Positions 13,820 through 58,575 of a stretch of DNA of 64,000 nt are shown piece after piece. This DNA comes from a virus. How positions within the stretch are numbered: the first letter of the stretch is position 1; the number at the start of each line of letters is the position of its first letter. A program made the translations under genes and the position numbers. The stretch is taken from positions 79,666 to 143,665 of IMG/VR virus record IMGVR_UViG_3300023184_000038; one strand, given 5' to 3'. The notes under the pieces are model-generated. The model made no database searches and was not told the origin of the DNA. It was given only the letters and a program-made list of their open reading frames with translations.

Positions 13820-14652
13820 TGAAAAAAGTATTAATAACAGGTAATTCAGGTTATATCGGTAGTCATCTTTCCAAGATGTTAGCAGATTCTTATGAAGTAT
13901 ATGGGTTAGATATTACCCTTCCACAGACAGATCGGCTTAAAGATTGGTATAATATTGATATTCGTAAATTATTTACTATTGACCAAGAATTTGATGCAGT
14001 AATACATTTAGCAGCCTTAGTTAATGTAGGTGAAAGTGAGCAGCAACCCATAAGTTATTATATTACCAATTTGAATGGGACGATGAATGTCATCAATAAG
14101 ATTAAGACAAAGAATTTTATTTTTGCAAGTACTGGCGCAGCAGCGGGATGTGAGAGTGCATATGGTATTAGTAAACGTGCTGCGGAAGATGTGGTGCGTG
14201 AATATTGCACTATACATAATCCCAAAGATTACACAATATTTAGGTTCTATAACGTAATTGGTAGTGATGGTTTTTTGCCAACTAATCCAGACGGGTTGAT
14301 GTATAATTTAATGAAATCAAAAGAAAAGGGCGAATTTACTATTTTTGGGAATGACTATGATACCCGAGATGGAACTTGCATACGTGATTATGTACATGTT
14401 AATGAGATATGTGAAGCATTAGGTAGTGCTATTGAGAGGCCAAGTAATCAAATAGAATGTTTAGGGCATGGAGTAGGTTATACTGTTGCCGAGATAGTTA
14501 ATACGTTCAAAAAAGTAAACAATATACCTAATATTAATTTACTTACTAAGATAGGTCCAAGAAGAAAGGGTGACTTAGCAGTATCTGTATTAGATAATGT
14601 GTCACCCTATATGAAGAATCTTTATACTTTAGAGCAGTTACTTAAAGTTTAA
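13816..14652 (+). CDS. NAD-dependent sugar epimerase/dehydratase (SDR family)
   Basis: 278 aa. Rossmann motif GNSGYIGSH (about residues 9-17), active-site YGISK (Tyr-x3-Lys) and a C-terminal substrate domain with RDYVHVNE, as in UDP-glucose 4-epimerases. It probably epimerises or dehydrates a nucleotide sugar made in this block. Three closely spaced ATGs exist (13810, 13816, 13819); 13816 is taken. The gene converges on the minus-strand gene that ends at 14649, overlapping by 4 nt. Exact substrate unknown. Confidence 0.9.
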   Translation: MMKKVLITGNSGYIGSHLSKMLADSYEVYGLDITLPQTDRLKDWYNIDIRKLFTIDQEFDAVIHLAALVNVGESEQQPISYYITNLNGTMNVINKIKTKNFIFASTGAAAGCESAYGISKRAAEDVVREYCTIHNPKDYTIFRFYNVIGSDGFLPTNPDGLMYNLMKSKEKGEFTIFGNDYDTRDGTCIRDYVHVNEICEALGSAIERPSNQIECLGHGVGYTVAEIVNTFKKVNNIPNINLLTKIGPRRKGDLAVSVLDNVSPYMKNLYTLEQLLKV

Positions 14653-16394
14653 GAAGCCCATTTTTTATAGGGCTTTGGTAATTTATTTTCCGCCACACCT
14701 TGCTTTCTAATCTTAACATTACCCCTCATTCGGTCAACACTTTCAGGAGTAGGAATATTTAGGCTACGGAACTGAGCTGTGCCTTGTGCAGCAACTGGTC
14801 CTCCATGTAAACTATCACGCTCTTCACCTTTGCTGTTACGCCACTTACCGTCAGTGCCTTGTGTCAGTGGTTCTTTTGTTTGATAGTCTCGTGGAACAAA
14901 CGGTGCATTTGCACTAGGCTCTGGACTTGGGCTAGGTGATGAAGTAGATGCTGCTTTCCAGCCAGCCGCGTTCATTGCGTCTACAGTTTGATCACCGGGC
15001 TGTTTGCCGTCAGCTTTTCCATTTACAATTCGCAAATACGAAGCCATTCCATACTGTGTACCAGAGCCTGCTGGCTTTTCAATCCAGTATGTTTTGCTTT
15101 GTGTATCAAGAACAGCTGGATAATTCTGACCATTATAGTTAGTAGTTGTTAAAGTAAATCCATTACCTAAATCTTTTTCATTTGCCGGCGGTCCTCCAGC
15201 AGTGGCACCAGTATTACTAAAATCATTTATATTAGCTCCTGGTGGCAATCGTGGACGAATTGGTGCTTCAGCAGAGGCACCAGTATTACTAAAATCATTT
15301 ATATTAGCTCCTGGTGGCAATCGTGGACGAATTGGTGCTTCATCTTCTTCTGTCACACCTTGCTTCTTATATACATCCTTGAATGCTTTATTAAAAATGT
15401 CAGTAGCTTGCTTAGTTGTTTTTTTAGCAGTGGTTGGCGTGGCAGTATGTTGTGGGTCAGAGTCGCTATAGTGGTCTCTTGAACCATATGTGCTATGACT
15501 TCTTGTGCCATCAGATTTCATACGTCCTTTGGGTTCTTGACTATGCATTTCCGCCACATCAGATTCTGGTTTCTTCTGCCCGTACATGTCTTTTCCATCT
15601 TTATCATAATGAGTTGGGGGAAAATCATACGCTTTATTATGAATATCTTGCCTGGCCCATCTATTCATCTCACGCGGCCGGGGAATTAATTTTACCGTAG
15701 GCGTATGCTTATCTTTCAATGCCCAGTTATTCATTCCTTCCGCCACACCTTGCTCTAAACGATTCTGCGCTTTAGCAAATCCTGCAACACTGCGGTTGGC
15801 TTTTTCTGGACTACGCTTTGTTGGGTCTGCTTTATGTTTCATAGAGTCGGAACTTACTTTTTGTTGATAACTCTTTAGTGCATTATTGCTAACTTCCGCC
15901 ACACCTTGCTCGGCCATTCCTAACTTACGCATTACCGCCGGAGAAGCGATTTTGTTTTTTATACAATTGGGATATTTTTTCCCAAACATAGTTTTCATGC
16001 CTTCTTTGTGATATCCTTTCCAGCAAGCTTCGTCTAAACTTTTCTGTGAGTGATCTCCGTGTGTTTCACACATACCACAGTCTTCACAGACCATTTCCAT
16101 CTCAATGCTTTCGTTGTGTTTCTTTTTACCAGCGCAATGAGCCTTTTGACTAAATCCTTTGGGATGTGAGCAATTGATACTGCTTTTATATTTTTGACTC
16201 CATCCCTCATTATAGTTATCATACTTATTACGAACAGCATCTAACTTTTTTTCACTAGCACCTTCACGTCCTGCTTTGGCTAATGCCTTCATACCATTTT
16301 TGCCATACTTTTCATTGCCCTTGGCAGCACGACTCATTGGTCGTTTATTCTCTATTACTTTTTCTGTGCTAACAATTATGTGATTTATTTTCAT
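14649..16394 (-). CDS. Large low-complexity protein, probable packaged head protein (MKIN/GVAE type)
   Basis: 581 aa, starting MKINHIIVSTE. Residues 18-130 are Lys-rich with a Cys/His cluster (CEDCGMCETHGDH) that could bind zinc. Four copies of QGVAE or QGVTE are spread through the chain, often at the edges of low-complexity blocks; they fit a V-x-E processing site for a prohead protease. A 24-aa unit (starting EAPIRPRLPPG) is duplicated. Most of the rest is Gly/Ser/Thr/Pro-rich. By analogy with T4 internal proteins it may be carried into the capsid; this is inference. Follows the 160-aa gene by a 4-nt overlap. Confidence 0.75.
   Translation of the reverse strand: MKINHIIVSTEKVIENKRPMSRAAKGNEKYGKNGMKALAKAGREGASEKKLDAVRNKYDNYNEGWSQKYKSSINCSHPKGFSQKAHCAGKKKHNESIEMEMVCEDCGMCETHGDHSQKSLDEACWKGYHKEGMKTMFGKKYPNCIKNKIASPAVMRKLGMAEQGVAEVSNNALKSYQQKVSSDSMKHKADPTKRSPEKANRSVAGFAKAQNRLEQGVAEGMNNWALKDKHTPTVKLIPRPREMNRWARQDIHNKAYDFPPTHYDKDGKDMYGQKKPESDVAEMHSQEPKGRMKSDGTRSHSTYGSRDHYSDSDPQHTATPTTAKKTTKQATDIFNKAFKDVYKKQGVTEEDEAPIRPRLPPGANINDFSNTGASAEAPIRPRLPPGANINDFSNTGATAGGPPANEKDLGNGFTLTTTNYNGQNYPAVLDTQSKTYWIEKPAGSGTQYGMASYLRIVNGKADGKQPGDQTVDAMNAAGWKAASTSSPSPSPEPSANAPFVPRDYQTKEPLTQGTDGKWRNSKGEERDSLHGGPVAAQGTAQFRSLNIPTPESVDRMRGNVKIRKQGVAENKLPKPYKKWAS
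15204..15347 (-). repeat. 72-bp tandem duplication within the 581-aa gene
   Basis: Two near-identical 72-bp units encode the 24-aa block with core IRPRLPPGANINDF. The frame is kept. It looks recent, because the DNA hardly differs between copies. Confidence 0.85.
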
Positions 16395-16873
16395 TTACTA
16401 CCCTTTTCTTTATATGCCCAACGAGGTCCACCACCGCCGCCACCTGTTTCATTAAACCATGCATTGGATTCAGCTTGAGGTAAAGATTTTAGCCATTTAG
16501 AAAGCACTCCGGCCGCTGGGATCTTTCCATTTTTGTCAACAAATCTAGTGGAAATGACTCCTTTACGATTATCACCTATTTGCGGACTCAGCCAAACGCC
16601 ATTCCACGCAGGTTCCCACATCATTATTTTTGTTGGATTGAATTCCCATTTTGTTGGGGAGAGCGGTCTAAGCAGATACACAGTTCCAGTTCCTCCGGGC
16701 GATGGGTTTGGAATTTCTTTATAATTACCTTTGGGAATTTGAATTGAAGCTTGACCAATCTTGCTTGCAGGGACCATATGGGTCCAGTTACTGGGTACAA
16801 CATCATTACCACTACCTTTAGCAGTAGTTGCGGCAGGTGCTCCCTGAGATGCCAGCCACTCTAGTGGACTCAT
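16391..16873 (-). CDS. Unknown protein, Gly/Trp-rich
   Basis: 160 aa. Several Trp residues and a glycine run (GGGGGGPRW) near the C-terminus. The N-terminus MSPLEWLASQG could be helical. It is joined to both neighbours by 4-nt overlaps, so it belongs with the two large putative internal proteins. No domain recognised. Confidence 0.72.
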   Translation of the reverse strand: MSPLEWLASQGAPAATTAKGSGNDVVPSNWTHMVPASKIGQASIQIPKGNYKEIPNPSPGGTGTVYLLRPLSPTKWEFNPTKIMMWEPAWNGVWLSPQIGDNRKGVISTRFVDKNGKIPAAGVLSKWLKSLPQAESNAWFNETGGGGGGPRWAYKEKGSK

Positions 16874-18468
16874 TGTTCATCCTTCATCAGGAACCCTAGT
16901 TTTTTCATGGCTGTCAGATAGGCTCTCCACAATTTATCAGGCCAACCGGTTGGTCGTTCGTAAGTCTTTCCGTCTACGGTTGCACGTTTTGGTAAAGGGC
17001 CAATATCTTGCACTGGATCTCCTGATTTACCCCAGGGCTTGTCGGTTGCTGCAACTGCCAGTGCTGGCAATTGACCAGACATAGCCTTCTCTCTAAGGTC
17101 TTCTATACCATCTATTGTTGCTTTTATATCTACTTTTAAATCGGCATCAGTAGTATCTAGTCCAAAATAACGCACAAGTATAGGCAACTGTTTTTTAATT
17201 ATATCAACATCTTCTTTTGATATAAATCCAGCTGCTACAGCCTGTCCAACTGTACCTGCCTGCCCGGCTCCGCCTTCAGGTCCTCCGCCAGGCACACCGC
17301 CTTCAGGTCCTCCGCCAGGCACACCGCCTTCAGGTCCTCCGCCAGGCACACCGCCTTCAGGTCCTCCGGGAGGTTTATCTTCTGGTTTTTCTTCTTTGTT
17401 ATTCCACCAGTCCCATAATGCTTTACCACCTTCATATGCTCCCCATAAGCCTAATCCCACGCTTCCAGCTTTTCCTAACTTACCAAGACCACTACCAATA
17501 CTACGCATTGGATTACGGGCAGCAGCTGCTGCGGTCCGTCTAGCAGTTGATTGAGCTGTAATTGCTGCCCTTCTAGCTGCCTGGGCTGCTCTATTCCTAG
17601 CGCCGGGACTGCCACCTCGGACTAGTCTACCAAGTCCCCGAACTAACGGAGCAATAAATTCATTTAATTGTTCTGGCTTATTTTCAATTAAAATAGTAAA
17701 AATTCTAATTTGTTCAGCAGGTGAAAATTCATGTAGATTTTCAGATATCAGCCTACGTTTGAGAGTATTTCTACTTTCTGTTGTTACCTTATATTTTTTA
17801 AGAATATTGTTTAATTGAGTCAATGCAGTAGTTAAATCAGCGGCAGGGCCGATATCTTTATCTGCATTTCCTGATTTACCCCTAAGATTGCCCGCTGCTG
17901 CAGCACCTGCTGCACCACCTGCAGTATTTGCACCCGCCTCGGCATCCATTCTATCAGCAATTCGTTCAGCTTGTGCTGCTGCGTCCGGTGCTTGATTTGC
18001 TGTAGTTGATGAATCAGTAGAAGAGTTTCCTGCTTGATTTGGTGTATCTGAGGAATCAGTAGAAGAGTTTCCTGCTTGATTTGGTGTATCTGGGTAAGGT
18101 TCAAACTTGTAAGGGGCAGAGTCAGTGCCGGGCCCAGGATCTTTACCGGCTTGGTTAGTTCCCGAAACACCGCGGCTAGTACCAAACGTTCCAAAATTAG
18201 AAGAAGCATTGTTAGGAGATGTGCTAAATATTGGTTCATCTGGCTTTCCACCAACTACACTCTTAACTGTATTCAAGTTGCTTGTACCAACGTTTAGTTC
18301 TTTTGCTTTTGCTTGATCGTCGGGGTCTTTAAAATAACTTAGTGGAGGCTTTTCACCGGGCATTCTGGCTAAAATATACGGATCTTTACGGTCTGCATTA
18401 CCCAACCATTTTTCTTGTTCGGGAGTAGGAGTCCATTCTTCCCGCAAAATTAATTCATTTATTTTCAT
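16870..18468 (-). CDS. Large low-complexity protein with MKIN N-terminus and amphipathic segment
   Basis: 532 aa, starting MKINELILREE, where LREE could be a prohead-protease cut site. Residues 120-160 hold imperfect repeats of NQAGNSSTDSS. Residues 280-350 are Ala/Arg-rich, then a glycine-patterned stretch (GSGLGKLGKAGSVGLGLWG) resembling membrane-active peptides. Residues 365-395 repeat GGVPGGGPE. The C-terminal 120 residues are more globular. It could be an ejected or internal head protein that interacts with membrane or DNA; this is inference. A late-type promoter box lies just upstream. Confidence 0.72.
   Translation of the reverse strand: MKINELILREEWTPTPEQEKWLGNADRKDPYILARMPGEKPPLSYFKDPDDQAKAKELNVGTSNLNTVKSVVGGKPDEPIFSTSPNNASSNFGTFGTSRGVSGTNQAGKDPGPGTDSAPYKFEPYPDTPNQAGNSSTDSSDTPNQAGNSSTDSSTTANQAPDAAAQAERIADRMDAEAGANTAGGAAGAAAAGNLRGKSGNADKDIGPAADLTTALTQLNNILKKYKVTTESRNTLKRRLISENLHEFSPAEQIRIFTILIENKPEQLNEFIAPLVRGLGRLVRGGSPGARNRAAQAARRAAITAQSTARRTAAAAARNPMRSIGSGLGKLGKAGSVGLGLWGAYEGGKALWDWWNNKEEKPEDKPPGGPEGGVPGGGPEGGVPGGGPEGGVPGGGPEGGAGQAGTVGQAVAAGFISKEDVDIIKKQLPILVRYFGLDTTDADLKVDIKATIDGIEDLREKAMSGQLPALAVAATDKPWGKSGDPVQDIGPLPKRATVDGKTYERPTGWPDKLWRAYLTAMKKLGFLMKDEQ
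17274..17368 (-). repeat. 27-bp tandem repeat, 3.5 copies
   Basis: Perfect 27-bp units at 17274, 17301 and 17328 plus a partial fourth copy encode the GGVPGGGPE repeats of the 532-aa protein. High GC compared with its surroundings. Confidence 0.92.
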
Positions 18469-18487
18469 TTTAGTTTACCTTGTTTAG

Positions 18488-18496
18488 TATTTATCA
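18488..18496 (-). promoter_or_regulatory. Late-type promoter box TGATAAATA
   Basis: On the minus strand TGATAAATA stands 20-28 nt before the MKINELIL start codon, with AAGG in between. Its first three bases are the stop codon of the upstream gene. Confidence 0.5.
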
Positions 18497-20035
18497 ATGC
18501 CTTAACAATAGAGTACTTAATACACCTGGATCGTTTGCACTAACATCCCCTTCACCGGGAGCAACAATAACATTGTACTTCATGCCAGTTGGAATTGAAT
18601 TTCTTTTGGACATGTATTCAGTATAACTTAATATACTTGATGCACTAATGCCGTATTCGTTTGCAATACGTTGTTTCATTTGAGCAAGAGCCTCAGGACT
18701 AGCAGGTTGCCATGCACCATCTGATGTCTTTTTCAAGTTACCCTTTTCATCCTTAGCCAACAAGTCATAAAATAGTTTTTCAGGCACTATACGACTATTC
18801 TTAGTTTTATCTAAGTTTGGATCTTGTGCCTTAATTTGTTTCTCTTGTGTAGTATTAGCACCTTCACTCCAATTGATAATAAAGTTAGGCGGCTTATTAG
18901 CCAATGCTGCTCCGGCCATCTTAGTGTAAGCATAGAATCTAACATCAGGATGTTTAGCAGCCATTTTCAATGCTAAATCTAAGTATTCTGGACTAAAGAA
19001 GTCACCAGCATCATGCCAGCGAACTGTTGTTTGCCAACCATTAGGGAATTTCTTATCACCCTTTGCTGCTGCTTGTGCCTCAACAGAGATTTCATTGCTT
19101 AGTTGATTAAAGAAACCATCTGGATCATTCAATAGATATGTTAGTATTCTTCCGTCACTTTGCCATGCTGCCTTAAATTGAATCTTACCGCCCTTCATGG
19201 CAAAGCACTCTACTTTACAAGAGCCAGCACCGGGACAAGTATTAACAACGATTAACTTATTGGTTTGTTCATCTAGTGCAATTCCTACTAATGCTGCGAA
19301 TCCAACATTAAAAAATTGTTCAAACTCTCCATTACTATGCTTCATCTTTTCATTTTGCTTTAGTAACGCTTTGGGACGAATTGCCAATGTTTGTTTAATT
19401 TTATCCTCATCATATGTTTGACCATCTGGACTTAAGTATGTAACTACACTACTACGATGGATGTAAGGCATTTTGTATTTGTCTGTTTTAGTTTTACCAG
19501 TAGTATACTTTTCGTTGCCTTTCTTATCTACTTTGATATTACCTGCTTTATCTAAGTCGGGTGTGCCAACGATACGTTTCATGTAGTCTTGAAACTCTTG
19601 GCTATCTAAATCACGAGTTTGTGCTGGCAGTTTGGTTGCTTCGTCTACATCTTTATACACACTACCTGCTTTATGTGCTGCATCAGTATAAGTACCGTGT
19701 AGTTTTTGTAACTGAGATAATGCTTTAGGTCCGTGAGTTTTTAAAATTTCAGCATATGCTTTGTCAGATGCTGCTTTGTTCGGGACTCTACCACCGCCGC
19801 CGTGATTTAAATAGGCTTTATGATATGCTGTCTTAGCATCAGATTCATTGATCTGTCCTAATCCAGATAGTTTACGAATTCTATCTAAGTGTTCTTGGCC
19901 TTCCGCCACACCTTCTTCTTCATCTGGCATATCACTTGCACTAGCAACAAATTGTTGGGGAGTCATAATTTTTATTCCCGATGGTGCGCCTGCTAAATTA
20001 GAATTAGTTGACTCTAATATATCATTTATTTTCAT
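18494..20035 (-). CDS. MKIN-tagged protein with GP88-like domain
   Basis: 513 aa from the ATG at 20035, which has a GGAG ribosome site; an ATG at 20068 would add 11 residues without one. It starts MKINDILEST and has EEEGVAEGQ near residue 50, again matching the N-terminal tag plus GVAE theme. The C-terminal half contains CPGAGSCKVECFAMKG and a later WHDAGDFFSPEYL ... DVRFYAYTKM segment, which I recognise as the phage GP88-like family (Cys-rich, of unclear enzymatic role). So a possible enzyme appears fused to a head-targeting leader. Confidence 0.78.
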   Translation of the reverse strand: MKINDILESTNSNLAGAPSGIKIMTPQQFVASASDMPDEEEGVAEGQEHLDRIRKLSGLGQINESDAKTAYHKAYLNHGGGGRVPNKAASDKAYAEILKTHGPKALSQLQKLHGTYTDAAHKAGSVYKDVDEATKLPAQTRDLDSQEFQDYMKRIVGTPDLDKAGNIKVDKKGNEKYTTGKTKTDKYKMPYIHRSSVVTYLSPDGQTYDEDKIKQTLAIRPKALLKQNEKMKHSNGEFEQFFNVGFAALVGIALDEQTNKLIVVNTCPGAGSCKVECFAMKGGKIQFKAAWQSDGRILTYLLNDPDGFFNQLSNEISVEAQAAAKGDKKFPNGWQTTVRWHDAGDFFSPEYLDLALKMAAKHPDVRFYAYTKMAGAALANKPPNFIINWSEGANTTQEKQIKAQDPNLDKTKNSRIVPEKLFYDLLAKDEKGNLKKTSDGAWQPASPEALAQMKQRIANEYGISASSILSYTEYMSKRNSIPTGMKYNVIVAPGEGDVSANDPGVLSTLLLRH

Positions 20036-20110: not shown

Positions 20111-21145
20111 ATGACAAATAATCATATCAAACGTATTGGGTTTGCGTGTAAGTTTTCTGAAGTTAATACTAAAAACTTTGTAGTTAGTGTGCCTGAATTA
20201 AACACGGGCGGCACAACTTTAACTTGGTTAAAACGTCAAAAACAAGAAGTAGCAGAACAAAAATTGTGGGATACTATGGAAAAAAATATAACCCATACTC
20301 ATAATCTTGTAATGAAAGTTGGATCCCTTGTACCGGACCTCAGAATGGTTAGATTAACTAGCGATATGCTAACTGCATATACCCATCCTGATTGGGAATA
20401 TTTTTATAAACGCCATGATGTGATTACCCGTATGGAAGAATTATTCACTAAAGTGGGCAATTCTGCTAGAGAAAATGATGTTAGATTGTCTTTTCATCCG
20501 GGACAATTTACTGTTTTAGCAAGCGCAAGTGATGATATCATAAATAACAGTATTAAAGAGTTTGAATATCATGCGGATATGGCTCGTAGTATGGGGTATG
20601 GTAAACAGTTTCAAGACTTTAAAATCAATGTTCATATTTCAGGTAGACGAGGTCCGCAAGGAATCAAAGATGTAATGAAACGTCTAACCGTAGAAGCTAG
20701 AAATATGATTACTATTGAAAATGATGAAATGACATGGGGAATTGATTCAAGTATGGAATTGATAGATACTTGTGCATTGGTACTAGATATACATCATCAT
20801 TGGATTAAAACTGGAGAATATATTGAAAATAATGATGATCGTATTAAAAGGATTTGTGATAGTTGGCGTGGCGTGCGCCCTGTTATACATTACTCCGTTA
20901 GTCGTGATGACTTACTTGTTGGCCATTCCCGATTACAGCGCCCCGCTCTTTTTCCGTTAATGGAGTCCGGGCATAATAAACAAAAACTTAGAGCACATTC
21001 TGATTTTTATTGGAATGATGCAGTCAATGATTGGGCATTGACTCACTGGCAATGGGCGGATATTGTCTGTGAGAGCAAAGCAAAAAATCTTGCCTCATTT
21101 GCATTATATGAACTACGTAAGGATAAAGAATGTTCAACAAATTAA
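20111..21145 (+). CDS. uvsE: UV DNA damage endonuclease (UVDE/UvsE family)
   Basis: TIM-barrel nuclease that nicks DNA 5' of UV photoproducts without a glycosylase step. 344 aa. Family landmarks in order: RIGFACK at the N-terminus, SFHPGQFTVLAS (metal-ligand His, about residue 120), NVHISGRRG, IENDEMTWG (metal-ligand Glu, about 198), LDIHHHW (about 224) and VIHYSVSRDD (about 260). The metal-binding His/Glu set looks complete. Overlaps the next gene by 16 nt. It would protect phage DNA in sunlit water. Confidence 0.92.
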   Translation: MTNNHIKRIGFACKFSEVNTKNFVVSVPELNTGGTTLTWLKRQKQEVAEQKLWDTMEKNITHTHNLVMKVGSLVPDLRMVRLTSDMLTAYTHPDWEYFYKRHDVITRMEELFTKVGNSARENDVRLSFHPGQFTVLASASDDIINNSIKEFEYHADMARSMGYGKQFQDFKINVHISGRRGPQGIKDVMKRLTVEARNMITIENDEMTWGIDSSMELIDTCALVLDIHHHWIKTGEYIENNDDRIKRICDSWRGVRPVIHYSVSRDDLLVGHSRLQRPALFPLMESGHNKQKLRAHSDFYWNDAVNDWALTHWQWADIVCESKAKNLASFALYELRKDKECSTN

Positions 21146-54557: not shown

Positions 54558-54893
54558 ATGGAAGCAGTAGTAGAAACAACACAATGGTCGGGGGATGTTC
54601 AGCCCAATCATAAATACTTGCTTGATGGTGCTAAGGTTCTTGCATATATCAAGCAAGGTTCTACTACACCTTTCTATTTCAAAAATCCGATCACAATTGA
54701 CAAGCGTGGTCGCAAATTTGTACCACTCAAGAGTAATCCTTTCAAGGTAAAAGAAAAGGCTACAGTTATCAAAGTGTCCGGTAGCAAAGGTCAGGTCTAC
54801 TCAATTGATACAGAAAATAAAACCTGTGATTGTATGGGATTTCAGTTTAGGGCAACTTGTAAACATTTACAATTAATAAACAATGCACAATGA
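54558..54893 (+). CDS. SWIM zinc-finger protein
   Basis: 111 aa. C-terminal CDCMGFQFRATCKH gives the C-x-C-x(n)-C-x-H zinc pattern of SWIM domains, which bind DNA or protein. The N-terminal 80 residues are beta-rich, basic and unassigned. Overlaps the next gene by 11 nt. Confidence 0.8.
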   Translation: MEAVVETTQWSGDVQPNHKYLLDGAKVLAYIKQGSTTPFYFKNPITIDKRGRKFVPLKSNPFKVKEKATVIKVSGSKGQVYSIDTENKTCDCMGFQFRATCKHLQLINNAQ

Positions 54894-55068
54894 ATTTAAT
54901 ACCTGGTTAACAGAAAATGATATCCTACGGATTTGGAATGTGATTCAAGGAATCTTGCCAAATATCGCAACATCTATAGACGAAATAAATGAATTCAACA
55001 GACTAGTAAATCATGTTGCAATGATTAAAAGTGGCGGCAATGGATATCTCACTGCCACTTTACAATAA
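54883..55068 (+). CDS. Small unknown protein
   Basis: 61 aa, helical, acidic. Overlaps the SWIM gene by 11 nt. No motif. An AATAAATA late-type box at its end may serve the next gene. Confidence 0.65.
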   Translation: MHNEFNTWLTENDILRIWNVIQGILPNIATSIDEINEFNRLVNHVAMIKSGGNGYLTATLQ

Positions 55069-55092
55069 ATAGTAATTTAAAAGGAAACACTT

Positions 55093-55767
55093 ATGTATGC
55101 AAATTATGACTATCGGGAAGCGGCTGAAATTAATTCCGCAATGGGACGAGTATACGGTCATATGAGTTTGGCAGTACTAACCTCTATGCTTATCAGTTGG
55201 TTTGTGGGCTCTAGTCCAGAACTACTACAATTCTTTTTTACCGGTATCCTTAAATGGATTGTAATTTTTGCTCCATTGGTGGCAATATTTGTCATTGGAT
55301 TCTTAATGGACAAAGTAGGTAAGCAAGGAGCACAGATGATGCTACACGGATTTGCTGCATTGATGGGATTGAGTTTTGCAACAACCTTTGCAGTTTACAC
55401 AATGGGATCAATTGTAAATGCATTTATGGGTGCAGCAGTGCTGTTTGGGGTACTCAGTGGATATGGATATTTTACCAAACGCAGTTTAGATAGTATTGGT
55501 AAATGGATGTTTGTGGGATTGATTACCATTATAATTGCTAGTATAATAAATGTATTCATCGGCAGTAGTGTAGGACAAATGGTAATTAGTGCATTGGCAA
55601 TTGTTATATTTCTTGGACTAACTGCATATGACACACAAAAGATTCGTGAAGAATTAAGTTTTGACACCAATGGTGTTGCTGAAGTTAAAGGTGCATTAAC
55701 TTTATATCTTGACTTCATTAATATTTTTATTAACTTGTTACAATTGTTTGGTGGTAAAAAAGATTGA
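55093..55767 (+). CDS. BAX inhibitor-1/YccA-like membrane protein
   Basis: 224 aa with seven hydrophobic helices by eye. GRVYGHMSLAV near the start and LTAYDTQKIREE near the end are BI-1/UPF0005 signatures. Bacterial relatives (YccA) restrain the FtsH protease or conduct Ca2+. In a phage with its own proteases it may modulate membrane proteolysis; this is inference. Late-type box AATAAATA (55064-55071) and AAAGGAAA precede it. Confidence 0.85.
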   Translation: MYANYDYREAAEINSAMGRVYGHMSLAVLTSMLISWFVGSSPELLQFFFTGILKWIVIFAPLVAIFVIGFLMDKVGKQGAQMMLHGFAALMGLSFATTFAVYTMGSIVNAFMGAAVLFGVLSGYGYFTKRSLDSIGKWMFVGLITIIIASIINVFIGSSVGQMVISALAIVIFLGLTAYDTQKIREELSFDTNGVAEVKGALTLYLDFINIFINLLQLFGGKKD

Positions 55768-55792
55768 CATTATATCTAATATGTGTTAAAAT
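55764..55792 (+). promoter_or_regulatory. Sigma-70 promoter overlapping the upstream stop
   Basis: TTGACA (55764-55769), 17 bp, TAAAAT (55787-55792). The TGA inside the -35 ends the BI-1-like gene. Confidence 0.68.
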
Positions 55793-55813
55793 AGCATTTT
55801 ATCGGAAATAATT

Positions 55814-56659
55814 ATGACTAAGTTAGCGATTTGCTCGGACATCCATTTAGAATTCGCAGACATTAACCTTCAAAATACAGAGAAGGCTGATGTTTTGATA
55901 CTAGCCGGCGATATTATGATCGCACAGGATCTCCACGACTTTCCAGAGCAAAATGTTAGAACTGCCGCTATGCTTGAAATGCTTAGTACCAGACAGGAAA
56001 AGGTGCAACGGTTCCGTGACTTTATGAAACGTTGTAGTTTTCAATTTCCAAAAGTAATTTACATTATGGGTAATCATGAATTTTACCATGGTAAGTTCCA
56101 TGCGTCTATTGATTACATGCGTGAAGAATGCTCAAAATATAGTAATTTTCATTTTTTAGAAAATGATACAGTAAAAATTAATGATATTACTTTTATAGGA
56201 AGCACTCTTTGGACTGACTGTAATAATAATGATCCATTAACTATACAATCATTACGGGGTATGATGAATGACTTTCGAGTCATTAGAAATGACCACGCTG
56301 AGTATCGTAGCCTTAGACCAGAAGATATTATAGTTAGACATAGGAAAAGTATGTCTTATATTACTGATACATTGGCTTCCTTAACAGATAGCAAAATTGT
56401 AATGGTTGGACATCATGCCCCAACAAGTCAAAGTATTGCAGATGAGTATAAAAAAGATTTTCTAATGAACGGCGGATATGCTAGTAACTTAAGTGAATTT
56501 ATTTTAAATCACCCTGAAATTGTTCTATGGATACATGGACATATGCATTTACCTTCTGACTACCTAGTGGGAACTACCCGGGTAGTAGCAAATCCTCGCG
56601 GATACGCGGGGCATGAAGAGCAAGCAGATAAGTTTCAATTAAAGTTTTTGGACATATAA
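55814..56659 (+). CDS. Metallophosphoesterase, intact active site
   Basis: 281 aa calcineurin-type phosphoesterase. Ligand motifs complete: CSDIHLE (Asp9, His11), LAGDI (Asp33), MGNHEFYHG (Asn, His), VGHHAPT and HGHMHLP. It could be a nuclease, phosphatase or cyclic-nucleotide enzyme. Intact partner to the degenerate version at 46487. Own promoter; ribosome site weak (TCGGAAA). Confidence 0.9.
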   Translation: MTKLAICSDIHLEFADINLQNTEKADVLILAGDIMIAQDLHDFPEQNVRTAAMLEMLSTRQEKVQRFRDFMKRCSFQFPKVIYIMGNHEFYHGKFHASIDYMREECSKYSNFHFLENDTVKINDITFIGSTLWTDCNNNDPLTIQSLRGMMNDFRVIRNDHAEYRSLRPEDIIVRHRKSMSYITDTLASLTDSKIVMVGHHAPTSQSIADEYKKDFLMNGGYASNLSEFILNHPEIVLWIHGHMHLPSDYLVGTTRVVANPRGYAGHEEQADKFQLKFLDI

Positions 56660-56683
56660 CGAAAGTTAAATACCCGTAATCTG

Positions 56684-56736
56684 TTGTATATACTTATATT
56701 ATGTAATATAATACTATCACGTTGTTAGTCACAACG
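56684..56736 (+). promoter_or_regulatory. Promoter and start-site hairpin of the HTH gene
   Basis: TTGTAT (56684-56689), 17 bp, TATAAT (56707-56712), then CGTTGT (56720-56725) paired with ACAACG (56731-56736), starting right where transcription should begin. Confidence 0.62.
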
Positions 56737-56757
56737 AATTTTTAGAAGGAAATTAAA

Positions 56758-57015
56758 ATGACCGTAACTAAGCAAGCTCGCCTAATCAAGGCACTTCAAA
56801 ATGGTGAGCAACTCACCGCAAAGCAAATCACCCATCGTTTTGGGATTTCTAATCCTACTGCAACCGTAAGCGATATTCGCTTTTCTGGATTTGCAGTATA
56901 CGCTAATAAGCGTACAAATAAACTTGGTCAAACCTTTACCAAGTACCGTTTGGGAACACCTGCTCGTGCAGTAGTAGCCGCCGGATATCGTGCATTGGCA
57001 CAAGCCGCAGTCTAA
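56758..57015 (+). CDS. Winged-helix/HTH DNA-binding protein
   Basis: 85 aa. LIKALQNGEQLTAKQITHRFG, then NPTATVSDIRFSGF, make a helix-turn-helix (about residues 9-47) with a following wing (QTFTKYRLG). Likely a phage regulator. It is a single-gene unit with its own promoter, leader hairpin and a clear terminator. Confidence 0.8.
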   Translation: MTVTKQARLIKALQNGEQLTAKQITHRFGISNPTATVSDIRFSGFAVYANKRTNKLGQTFTKYRLGTPARAVVAAGYRALAQAAV

Positions 57016-57031
57016 TTTTATTAGACTTAGC

Positions 57032-57058
57032 AAAAGAGGGTGATTATCACCCTTTTTT
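57032..57058 (+). terminator. Rho-independent terminator
   Basis: GGGTGA/TCACCC stem (57038-57043 with 57047-57052, loop TTA) extended by A-T pairs and followed by TTTTTT. It ends the HTH gene transcript and is the clearest terminator in the window. Confidence 0.88.
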
Positions 57059-57059
57059 G

Positions 57060-57088
57060 TTGCCGGTAATTGTATAGTATGCTATAAT
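57060..57088 (+). promoter_or_regulatory. Promoter giving a probable leaderless mRNA
   Basis: TTGCCG (57060-57065), 17 bp, TATAAT (57083-57088). The ATG is at 57095, where transcription should start; no ribosome site is present. Confidence 0.6.
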
Positions 57089-57094
57089 ACATCT

Positions 57095-57610
57095 ATGAAT
57101 ATTTTTCATAAAATAATGATAAAATTAGATAGGTATAGATTAATACCTGATCGAAGAACCGGAGCAGATTATATGCATCGGTATTATATATTTTTAAAAA
57201 ATCGCAAATGGTTTCCATTCAATATAACTTTACATAAAATTGTTCGTAGTGATGATCCAATTTTGCATGACCATCCATGGTCTTACTTGACAGTTATCCT
57301 TAAAGGTGGTTATTGGGAACATACCCCGATATTTGATACTAATGGCAAGATGCTTACTGAATTTCAAACATGGCGCGGACCTGGGTCTATAATTTATCGT
57401 AAAGCAAATGAATATCATTGGCTAGAATTAGATGAAGATAAACCTGCTACTACATTATTCTTTATGGGAGCCCAGCAAAGAGAATGGGGTTTTTTAACTA
57501 AAACTAAAGCAGGAAAAAATCGGTGGATTAGAAATGACTATTATCTTTCTGATTGGAAATCTTATCATAAAAAATATGTAGAATCAAAATTAACAACAGG
57601 AAAGAAATAA
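57095..57610 (+). CDS. Cupin-like protein
   Basis: 171 aa. LHDHPWSYLTVILKGGYWE (about residues 54-72) has the HxH cupin metal motif followed by the typical conserved glycines, and a later YHWLEL segment may give the final His. Could be a sugar or amino-acid dioxygenase or epimerase-type enzyme. Appears to start on a leaderless mRNA. Confidence 0.75.
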   Translation: MNIFHKIMIKLDRYRLIPDRRTGADYMHRYYIFLKNRKWFPFNITLHKIVRSDDPILHDHPWSYLTVILKGGYWEHTPIFDTNGKMLTEFQTWRGPGSIIYRKANEYHWLELDEDKPATTLFFMGAQQREWGFLTKTKAGKNRWIRNDYYLSDWKSYHKKYVESKLTTGKK

Positions 57611-57613
57611 ATT

Positions 57614-57931
57614 ATGTACATTACATTAACAAATGCGGCTGCTGCTCACAAAGGGGCTAAAATTGCAATCAACACCAATTTGATAGCAACAATCCATACA
57701 ACAATGGTTGAACGAGAGTCAAATGTATGGGAAGAAATTACTTATATTTTTTGTCCGCCATACGGTACTTGGGAAGTATCAGAATCGCACGACCATGTGG
57801 TGTCAGAATTAAATAAAATGCAAAGCAGTATACCCAATCTTGCTAGTTTAGTGGCAATGACAATTGCACAACCAAAACAACAACCTAGTAATGTTAACAC
57901 AGACGTAAATCGCAATGAACGACAACACTAA
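57614..57931 (+). CDS. Small conserved phage protein, unknown
   Basis: 105 aa. The beginning LTNAAAAHKGAKIAINTNLIATIH and FCPPYGTWEVSES (two separate parts) are familiar from related phages with no role assigned. Overlaps the MazG-like gene by 17 nt. Confidence 0.74.
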   Translation: MYITLTNAAAAHKGAKIAINTNLIATIHTTMVERESNVWEEITYIFCPPYGTWEVSESHDHVVSELNKMQSSIPNLASLVAMTIAQPKQQPSNVNTDVNRNERQH

Positions 57932-58196
57932 AGAAATCTTACTTATTCTACAAGAAGAATGTGCTGAGGTAACTCAAGCAGTTAGTAAATGTTTTAGATT
58001 TGGTATGTATAAAATAAAACCAAATAAACCAATGACCAACATACAAATGTTAGAAGAAGAAGTTGGAGACTTAATGGCCATGGTAGAGTTACTAACAGAT
58101 TTGAATATTGGTATCACCCAAGAAGGAATACATGAGGCTAAAATGAAAAAGTTTGAAAAGTTGAAAACGTGGTCTAACCTAATTATTAATAAATAA
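57915..58196 (+). CDS. MazG-like nucleotide pyrophosphohydrolase
   Basis: 93 aa. EECAEV (ExxE) and EEVGDL (ExxD) are the metal-binding pairs of the all-alpha MazG family. It may clean up non-canonical or stringent-response nucleotides in the infected cell. Short, single-domain form as in other phages. Confidence 0.84.
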   Translation: MNDNTKEILLILQEECAEVTQAVSKCFRFGMYKIKPNKPMTNIQMLEEEVGDLMAMVELLTDLNIGITQEGIHEAKMKKFEKLKTWSNLIINK

Positions 58197-58200
58197 TTGT

Positions 58201-58575
58201 ATGGATATAACTTTTATTGATATATTAATTTTTTGCATTGGCTGGTTTCTAGGATCCAGATGGATGGCATTTAATATTATGTTGTATATTACAACTACTT
58301 GTAAAAAACATAATATTACTATACCCGGTATTACTACTGATAGTTCTTTACCAAAAGTTATCACCACTAATACTATATTACGTACTGAAACAGTAAACGG
58401 AGTATTGTTTTTGTATAATAAAACTACACAGGCTTTTTTATGTCAAGCAAACACCTTAGAAGAAATTGCTAGTTTATATAAAAAATATCATACTGATAAA
58501 CTTGCTGCCGTAATACACAATAATAAAAATATTTGGTTTAAAGACGGTGAGGTGCATGTTGATGAACTCAATTAG
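58201..58575 (+). CDS. Membrane-anchored unknown protein
   Basis: 124 aa. One N-terminal hydrophobic segment (about 3-30), then a soluble alpha/beta part. Starts 4 nt after the MazG-like gene without clear ribosome site. Unknown. Confidence 0.66.
   Translation: MDITFIDILIFCIGWFLGSRWMAFNIMLYITTTCKKHNITIPGITTDSSLPKVITTNTILRTETVNGVLFLYNKTTQAFLCQANTLEEIASLYKKYHTDKLAAVIHNNKNIWFKDGEVHVDELN

Follow-up and report, generated by a model that had tools for sequence, protein, structure and literature searches.

A fixed 15-bp coding linker marks junctions between shuffled modules in putative internal head proteins of T4-superfamily phages

We analyzed a window of 64,000 nucleotides, positions 79,666 to 143,665 of the IMG/VR record IMGVR_UViG_3300023184_000038 (hereafter G000, a linear virus record of 143,665 bp). 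It contains a cluster of four open reading frames (ORFs), all on the minus strand, encoding proteins of 581, 160, 532, and 513 amino acids, two of which carry in-frame copies of a short DNA sequence, the linker CAAGGTGTGGCGGAA, encoding QGVAE. Since a PHROGs scan of the record gave matches to T4-type tail sheath, tail tube, head-closure, and DnaB-like helicase genes, we assign G000 to a T4-superfamily phage. The GC content rises to 0.39 to 0.44 in the cluster, against about 0.34. As stated in the initial annotation of this DNA, the 581-, 532-, and 513-aa genes lie on the minus strand and start with MKIN, all three opening with ATG AAA ATA AAT. Coordinates are window positions unless prefixed G000 (record positions). 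The genes and linkers are as follows.

14649..16394, minus strand: 581-aa multi-cassette protein, MKIN start
16391..16873, minus strand: 160-aa ORF without leader or linker, beginning MSPLEWLAS
16870..18468, minus strand: 532-aa ORF with GGPEGGVP repeats and no GVAE linker
18494..20035, minus strand: 513-aa GP88-domain protein, nested in a 524-codon ORF starting with TTG
14688..14702, minus strand: linker CAAGGTGTGGCGGAA (QGVAE) in the 581-aa protein
15348..15362, minus strand: degenerate linker CAAGGTGTGACAGAA (QGVTE), two mismatches, in the 581-aa protein
15738..15752, minus strand: linker CAAGGTGTGGCGGAA (QGVAE) in the 581-aa protein
15894..15908, minus strand: linker CAAGGTGTGGCGGAA (QGVAE) in the 581-aa protein
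19901..19915, minus strand: linker GAAGGTGTGGCGGAA (EGVAE), one mismatch, in the 513-aa protein

In the 581-aa protein, the linkers occupy residues 163-167, 215-219, 345-349 (the variant), and 565-569, and additional module junctions lie at E63-G64 (WSQKYKSSINCSHPK module) and E122-A123 (ACWKGYHKEGMK module). The initial annotation had counted QGVAE or EGVAE at least five times, bordering low-complexity blocks. There are four exact copies, and five only with QGVTE included; the 581-aa protein accounts for four of the five and the 513-aa protein for the other, while the 532-aa protein has none. They flank modules and not low-complexity blocks, the tandem repeats lying elsewhere, in frame within the 581- and 532-aa genes (15190-15342, 17268-17368, and 17989-18092; 72, 27, and 42 bp). 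That observation was mostly right in detail. It understated the phenomenon, missing its two most unusual features, a DNA linker of identical codons and the shuffling of modules.

The linker is a fixed DNA sequence and not just a shared peptide. The four exact [QE]GVAE sites of the window are all written with the codons GGT GTG GCG GAA, and the 12-mer GGTGTGGCGGAA, for which 100 dinucleotide shuffles give an expectation of 0.00, is present there four times. About 10 linker copies, variants included, are present in the whole record, all in frame and confined to four ORFs; outside the window cluster, these are only the plus-strand ORFs G000 54848-58204 and G000 74519-75679. A fully degenerate EQGVAEG pattern, run against IMG/VR, hit at least 119 stretches, the true number being higher, and the linker-bearing records are all metagenomic. 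Across G000 and these related uncultured phages, a large T4-like family from waters, the CAAGGTGTGGCGGAA core is found in at least 387 in-frame copies in 129 ORFs, with up to ten linkers per ORF. Among the EQGVAEG matches listed, 95 of 136 have exactly the codons GGT GTG GCG GAA, although GCG makes up only 6% of the Ala codons and GTG 17% of the Val codons in the same ORFs, and every exact 17-mer copy (137/137) is in frame on the coding strand of an ORF of at least 90 aa. The conserved block comprises 15 bp with partly conserved neighbors, beyond which the flanks are at background with almost no information, although the base profile was built from matches picked by similarity and owes part of its sharpness to that selection. 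Where right-hand junctions in the GP88 family are orthologous, the four-fold codons of the linker are 84% conserved, compared with 65% downstream, which is only a moderate difference; the strong evidence for a DNA linker is its identity across unrelated junctions. At the protein level, the Glu that ends the linker (P1 of a putative cleavage site) is its best-kept residue (808/912), and the amino-acid-changing positions of its codon vary less than the third position.

A reversed-pattern control gave no match in 25 genomes. In GTDB (84,980 genomes) we found only 70 linker matches, single, scattered, and ascribed to chance, and on this ground rejected a host or prophage origin. None of 12 isolate genomes contained linker DNA, and thus no cultured carrier was found. 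Two other roles were also rejected, namely, that of a stem-loop or RNA element (no stable fold) and that of an internal translation start past the linker, which contains AAGGTG (a downstream ATG is not enriched in the base profile). Since the string QGVAEG or GVAEG in a phage context was not found in the literature searched, the linker seems to be undescribed there.

The linker marks module junctions, at which the same module is joined to differing partners. When the flanks were clustered, 49 of 66 upstream clusters had more than one downstream partner across the linker, and 51 of 65 downstream clusters had more than one upstream partner. With the linkers masked, homology stopped within 3 aa of the linker in both proteins in 12 to 14% of cases, against 0.4% at random points. 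The median inter-linker distance is 68 aa, and in none of five Pfam domain matches checked did a linker lie inside the domain. Pfam scans of the window and of the linker proteins returned GP88, GNAT, DUF5661, DUF6321, and weakly DUF5872; with PHROGs included, few modules were identified, and most are without a Pfam match. Nucleotidyltransferase-like (CTP_transf_like) proteins, noted at G000 65413-66354 and locus L090, are encoded by linker-bearing ORFs in relatives; NMNAT-like proteins have been reported from cyanophage virion proteomes. In locus L020, very short cassettes of 15 to 20 aa, SKYPWLDSPRKKPEP, are repeated between linkers, which suggests unequal crossing-over at linkers.

Shuffling is most evident in the 513-aa GP88 protein, which has the following parts.

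20012..20035, minus strand: leader MKINDILE, resembling a capsid-targeting sequence (CTS); E8 is invariant in 36 homologues
About aa 40-125: hypervariable cassette site
19640..19642, minus strand: codon of the invariant E132, with which the core starts, directly before conserved ATKLPA
18842..19363, minus strand: GP88 (PF17338) domain match, E=6.5e-25

In 71 full-length GP88 relatives, a constant leader (MNFKELxEGxEPKMPGAPxGIQIMTPQQF...) and a constant core (E, then ATKLPA...) enclose an insert region of 9 to 487 aa with 0 to 7 linkers and differing cassettes. Empty and filled alleles of this site both occur as uninterrupted in-frame ORFs, making the linker system an unusually clean natural instance of domain shuffling. 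The nearest isolates match only 25 to 30% of the 513-aa protein. An AlphaFold model of this protein based on 36 sequences had a mean predicted local distance difference test (pLDDT) score of 57; values under 50 in the region of the leader and linker are weakly consistent with flexibility there.

Many linker proteins begin with a CTS-like leader, roughly nine residues long, of the form M[KR]xx(E/D/N)(I/L/F)(I/L)xE. The leader expected of CTS-bearing head proteins, about 7-19 aa with a prohead-protease site at its end, thus has a counterpart here. With starts predicted by a simple rule, a CTS-like N terminus was found in 33 of 89 linker ORFs (37%), compared with 82 of 903 neighbors at the same loci (9%) and 2% of shuffled sequences (p=2.5e-11); several patterns were tried, and all were significant. 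In the collected CTS-like leaders (n=309), residue 9 is Glu in 234, and P3 is I in 154, L in 105, and V in 31, a distribution partly forced by the search pattern. The initial annotation had suggested head-targeting leaders in the window proteins. The leaders of the 513- and 532-aa proteins are indeed CTS-like, and such leaders are enriched in linker ORFs across loci; for the 581-aa protein the resemblance is doubtful, its N terminus being without a clean I/L-x-E. Besides the 513-aa leader, the N termini are as follows.

18439..18468, minus strand: CTS-like leader MKINELILRE (L-R-E) of the 532-aa protein, followed by E
16350..16394, minus strand: N terminus MKINHIIVSTEKVIE of the 581-aa protein, in which the sole candidate site is the weak V-I-E15, followed by N

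Outside the window, a run of plus-strand genes at G000 72483-78770 (L005) also has leaders of the MRA.EFI.E type (MRAKEFIVE, MRATEFITE, MRANEFITE, and MRYTEFIIE, G000 73134-78770). Their products look like LRV/HEAT repeat, GNAT-like, ParB-like, kinase-like, and peptidase-like proteins, and the run adjoins a Dps/ferritin and a DUF6321 gene. These are probably further packaged proteins.

Glutamate also recurs at junctions at which the linker DNA is absent. We defined modules by their place after QGVAE and considered those of their occurrences that lack the linker DNA (8 or more mismatches in 15). At these junctions P1 was Glu in 48% (mean of 81 families), compared with 6 to 12% at other offsets, and [ILVM]xE occurred in 27%, compared with 0 to 8%. 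Both values are probably underestimates, since a shift of a few residues in some families slightly displaces the Glu. The WSQKYKSSINCSHP module, which follows E63 in the 581-aa protein, has Glu at 23 of 23 linker-free junctions, and the leaders found directly before it include MKINEILTE, MKINDILNE, MKANEFITE, and MRANEIFTE. In 36 GP88 homologues, E8 at the leader end and E132 at the core start are both invariant.

A search for a prohead protease, as the initial annotation had advised, was negative in G000, where neither gp21 (Peptidase_S77) nor gp23 had a match; the gp20-gp23 block is missing, and the record is therefore probably incomplete. In relatives the search succeeded, since all four contigs with gp23 also encode a gp21-type Peptidase_S77 (for example, L141:6790-7425), in regions that hold portal, core, and scaffold genes (named by gene order and T4 resemblance). 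Among isolates, the nearest gp23 proteins are those of jumbo phages (PA5oct, Phosso, and Serratia BF among them; 65 to 68% identity), and a small head protein of PA5oct, encoded beside the portal, begins MKINDIITE, its record carrying an ESI-MS/MS note. Modules of the 581-aa protein are common to cyanophage proteins encoded near terminase or capsid genes; one such protein, S-SCSM1 QFG06285.1, is labelled a virion protein in its record. In the S-SCSM1 paper, mass spectrometry detected 45 virion proteins (PMC9602691). In two cyanophage isolates (loci L369 and L371), small proteins with T4-like leaders carry a WSxKYKKSIDC module. Bellamy gp122 has a T4-like leader, MKSFKQFQE, then SWSNKYKK, directly before this module, while S-SM2 SSM2_108 has the leader MKTLKQFLKE and the module near its C terminus.

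We consider it likely that these are T4-type internal head proteins organized as cassette arrays, which would be cut at V/I/L-x-E and shuffled at the linker. In T4, the first 10 residues of IPIII suffice to have it packaged, and L/I-x-E is the motif after which gp21 cuts (PMC9026906). Here, the N-terminal leader would target the protein to the prohead core, a gp21-type prohead protease would cut the leader after its Glu, and the internal QGVAE junctions, together with other V/I/L-x-E sites, would be further cuts that release small modules inside the head. The released modules, with a median of about 68 aa between linkers, would then be delivered into the host. Cassettes may be exchanged, duplicated, and lost, with the frame always preserved, through short-homology recombination between linkers; microhomologies of 6-10 bp are enough for recombination in T4 (PMC9391042). 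Continual exchange of modules by this route would be the reason why the junction is kept as a fixed 15-bp DNA sequence. The initial annotation had proposed packaged proteins cut at V-A-E. In favor of this, modules seen after QGVAE elsewhere come after the end of a leader or after another Glu site whose DNA is unrelated; against it, V-A-E is not I/L-x-E. Its interpretation is partly supported. More tentatively, and with something less than an even belief in it, we put forward the idea of a dedicated evolvability system in which one 15-bp sequence would serve both as crossover site for cassette exchange and as code for the protease site that later separates the cassettes in the capsid, changing payloads of injected mini-proteins being made as cleavable polyproteins.

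Several observations weigh against this explanation. The weakest step of the cleavage reading is the Val at P3, since the linker has V where only about 10% of the leaders do. The phages' own gp23 sites appear to resemble L-x-E: aligned with T4 gp23, the N termini of the relatives' gp23 presumably have L-x-E before an (N/S/T)A(T/S)(A/T)G block. The 581-aa leader lacks a clean I/L-x-E end. Peptidase_S77 was seen in relatives alone, the record of the window being without gp20-gp23. Glu is present at only about half of the linker-free junctions, and some of these may be eroded linkers, a bias opposite in direction to that of the displaced Glu. Finally, cyanophage isolates carry modules without linker DNA, indicating that the linker is not required for module use.

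An alternative, which we regard as unlikely, is that the linker is only a recombination and fusion joint, a short, flexible, fold-neutral peptide whose shared DNA is used for crossover, within multi-domain (polyvalent) effectors that would function without being cut. No protease is needed to explain the DNA identity or the shuffling of modules, the linkers lie between domains and in low-confidence regions of a weak AlphaFold model, and proteins of the N4 vRNAP type are packaged uncut (PMC5512222). However, Glu is retained at P1 at junctions that lack the linker DNA, CTS-like leaders with a terminal Glu are found directly before the same modules, and no linker residue is better conserved than this Glu. 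None of the three is expected of a pure spacer. Action of a site-specific recombinase on the linker, in the style of integron cassettes, is very improbable, even though the core is fixed, the cassettes are similar in size, as many as ten linkers occur in an array, and sites can be empty or filled. PF00589 (tyrosine recombinase) or PF00239 (resolvase) matched in 0 of 18 linker-bearing contigs (controls were positive; the contigs are partial, and a recombinase may be missed), UvsX/RecA matched in 8 of the 18, the linker forms no stem-loop, and its flanking bases are almost without information. Rather less probable again is a function of the DNA motif itself, as a recombination hotspot or as a packaging or regulatory site, with the peptide a passenger. 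The codon identity, far above usage, speaks for it, but such a motif would occur in other frames and between genes too, whereas the 137 exact copies all read in a single frame of the coding strand; the restrained amino-acid-changing positions of the P1 Glu codon also argue against it. Assembly chimeras at a short repeat could mimic shuffling in records that are all metagenomic, but this is so unlikely as to be nearly negligible, given that 61 of 324 distinct junctions come from more than one locus (some pairs being the same contig or possible re-assemblies, so that not every one counts), that some of these span different metagenome accessions (for example, L032/L073 and L112/L288/L289), and that no break interrupts the in-frame ORFs of either the filled or the empty alleles.

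The proposed cleavable cassette arrays share with T4 IPI-IPIII and Alt, whose CTS is cut by gp21 (PMC9026906), a short leader with Glu at about residue 9-10 and, usually, I/L at P3, a gp21-type protease and gp23 (here in relatives), and highly diverse cargo behind a conserved leader. They differ in that T4 internal proteins are single small proteins whose known processing is one leader cut, while here there are several putative internal sites and the junctions are a fixed DNA sequence encoding V-A-E. Polyvalent proteins are similarly multi-domain, mosaic in domain order, and thought to be packaged and injected, and the available part of the source describes no shared inter-domain linker or uniform prohead-protease site for them (PMC5512222); the polyvalent domain set (zincin MPTase, ArdC-N, and others) was not found in Pfam scans of the window and linker proteins. 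Head proteins of SPN3US and phiKZ likewise depend on a gp21-like protease and have multiple A-x-E sites per protein (PMC10052503), but those sites remove propeptides, whereas the sites here separate recurring shuffled modules. Compared with the GP88 family (PF17338), whose domain forms its core, the 513-aa protein differs by its CTS-like leader and cassette insertion site. Unlike in integron arrays, no dedicated integrase was found in the 18 partial contigs. PeSLs, as Arbiol (2010) and Comeau (2014) reportedly described them, are intergenic units of promoter and stem-loop that shuffle whole genes. In contrast, the linker is intragenic, lacks a stable hairpin, and shuffles protein segments in frame. 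The likeness to these mobile regulatory cassettes of T4-type phages is that of a short conserved sequence promoting modular shuffling (cited in PMC4503421).

If cutting at the linker and recombination at the linker both hold true, this would be a new kind of system. T4 internal proteins are diverse single injected proteins, while their analogues here appear to be combinatorial polyproteins, written in a readable code of a leader followed by modules ending in QGVAE. Leader and linker together offer a sequence handle for listing candidate packaged effectors in many uncultured phages, the majority of these candidates being without a match to any known family.

The cluster is adjoined by a plus-strand gene at 20111-21145 for which PHROGs gave a match to an endonuclease family (phrog_8420, E=2.8e-77) and whose product resembles UV-damage endonuclease. 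We also observed a second dispersed coding repeat of about 26 bp, ATGAGTCCACTAGAGTGGCTGGCATC, which encodes MSPLEWLAS. It is identical at the start of the 160-aa ORF (16848-16873, minus strand) and at G000 70973-70998 (plus strand), where it sits inside a LysM/Hydrolase_2 protein, and it is present too in L215/L279/L359 and L280/L360.

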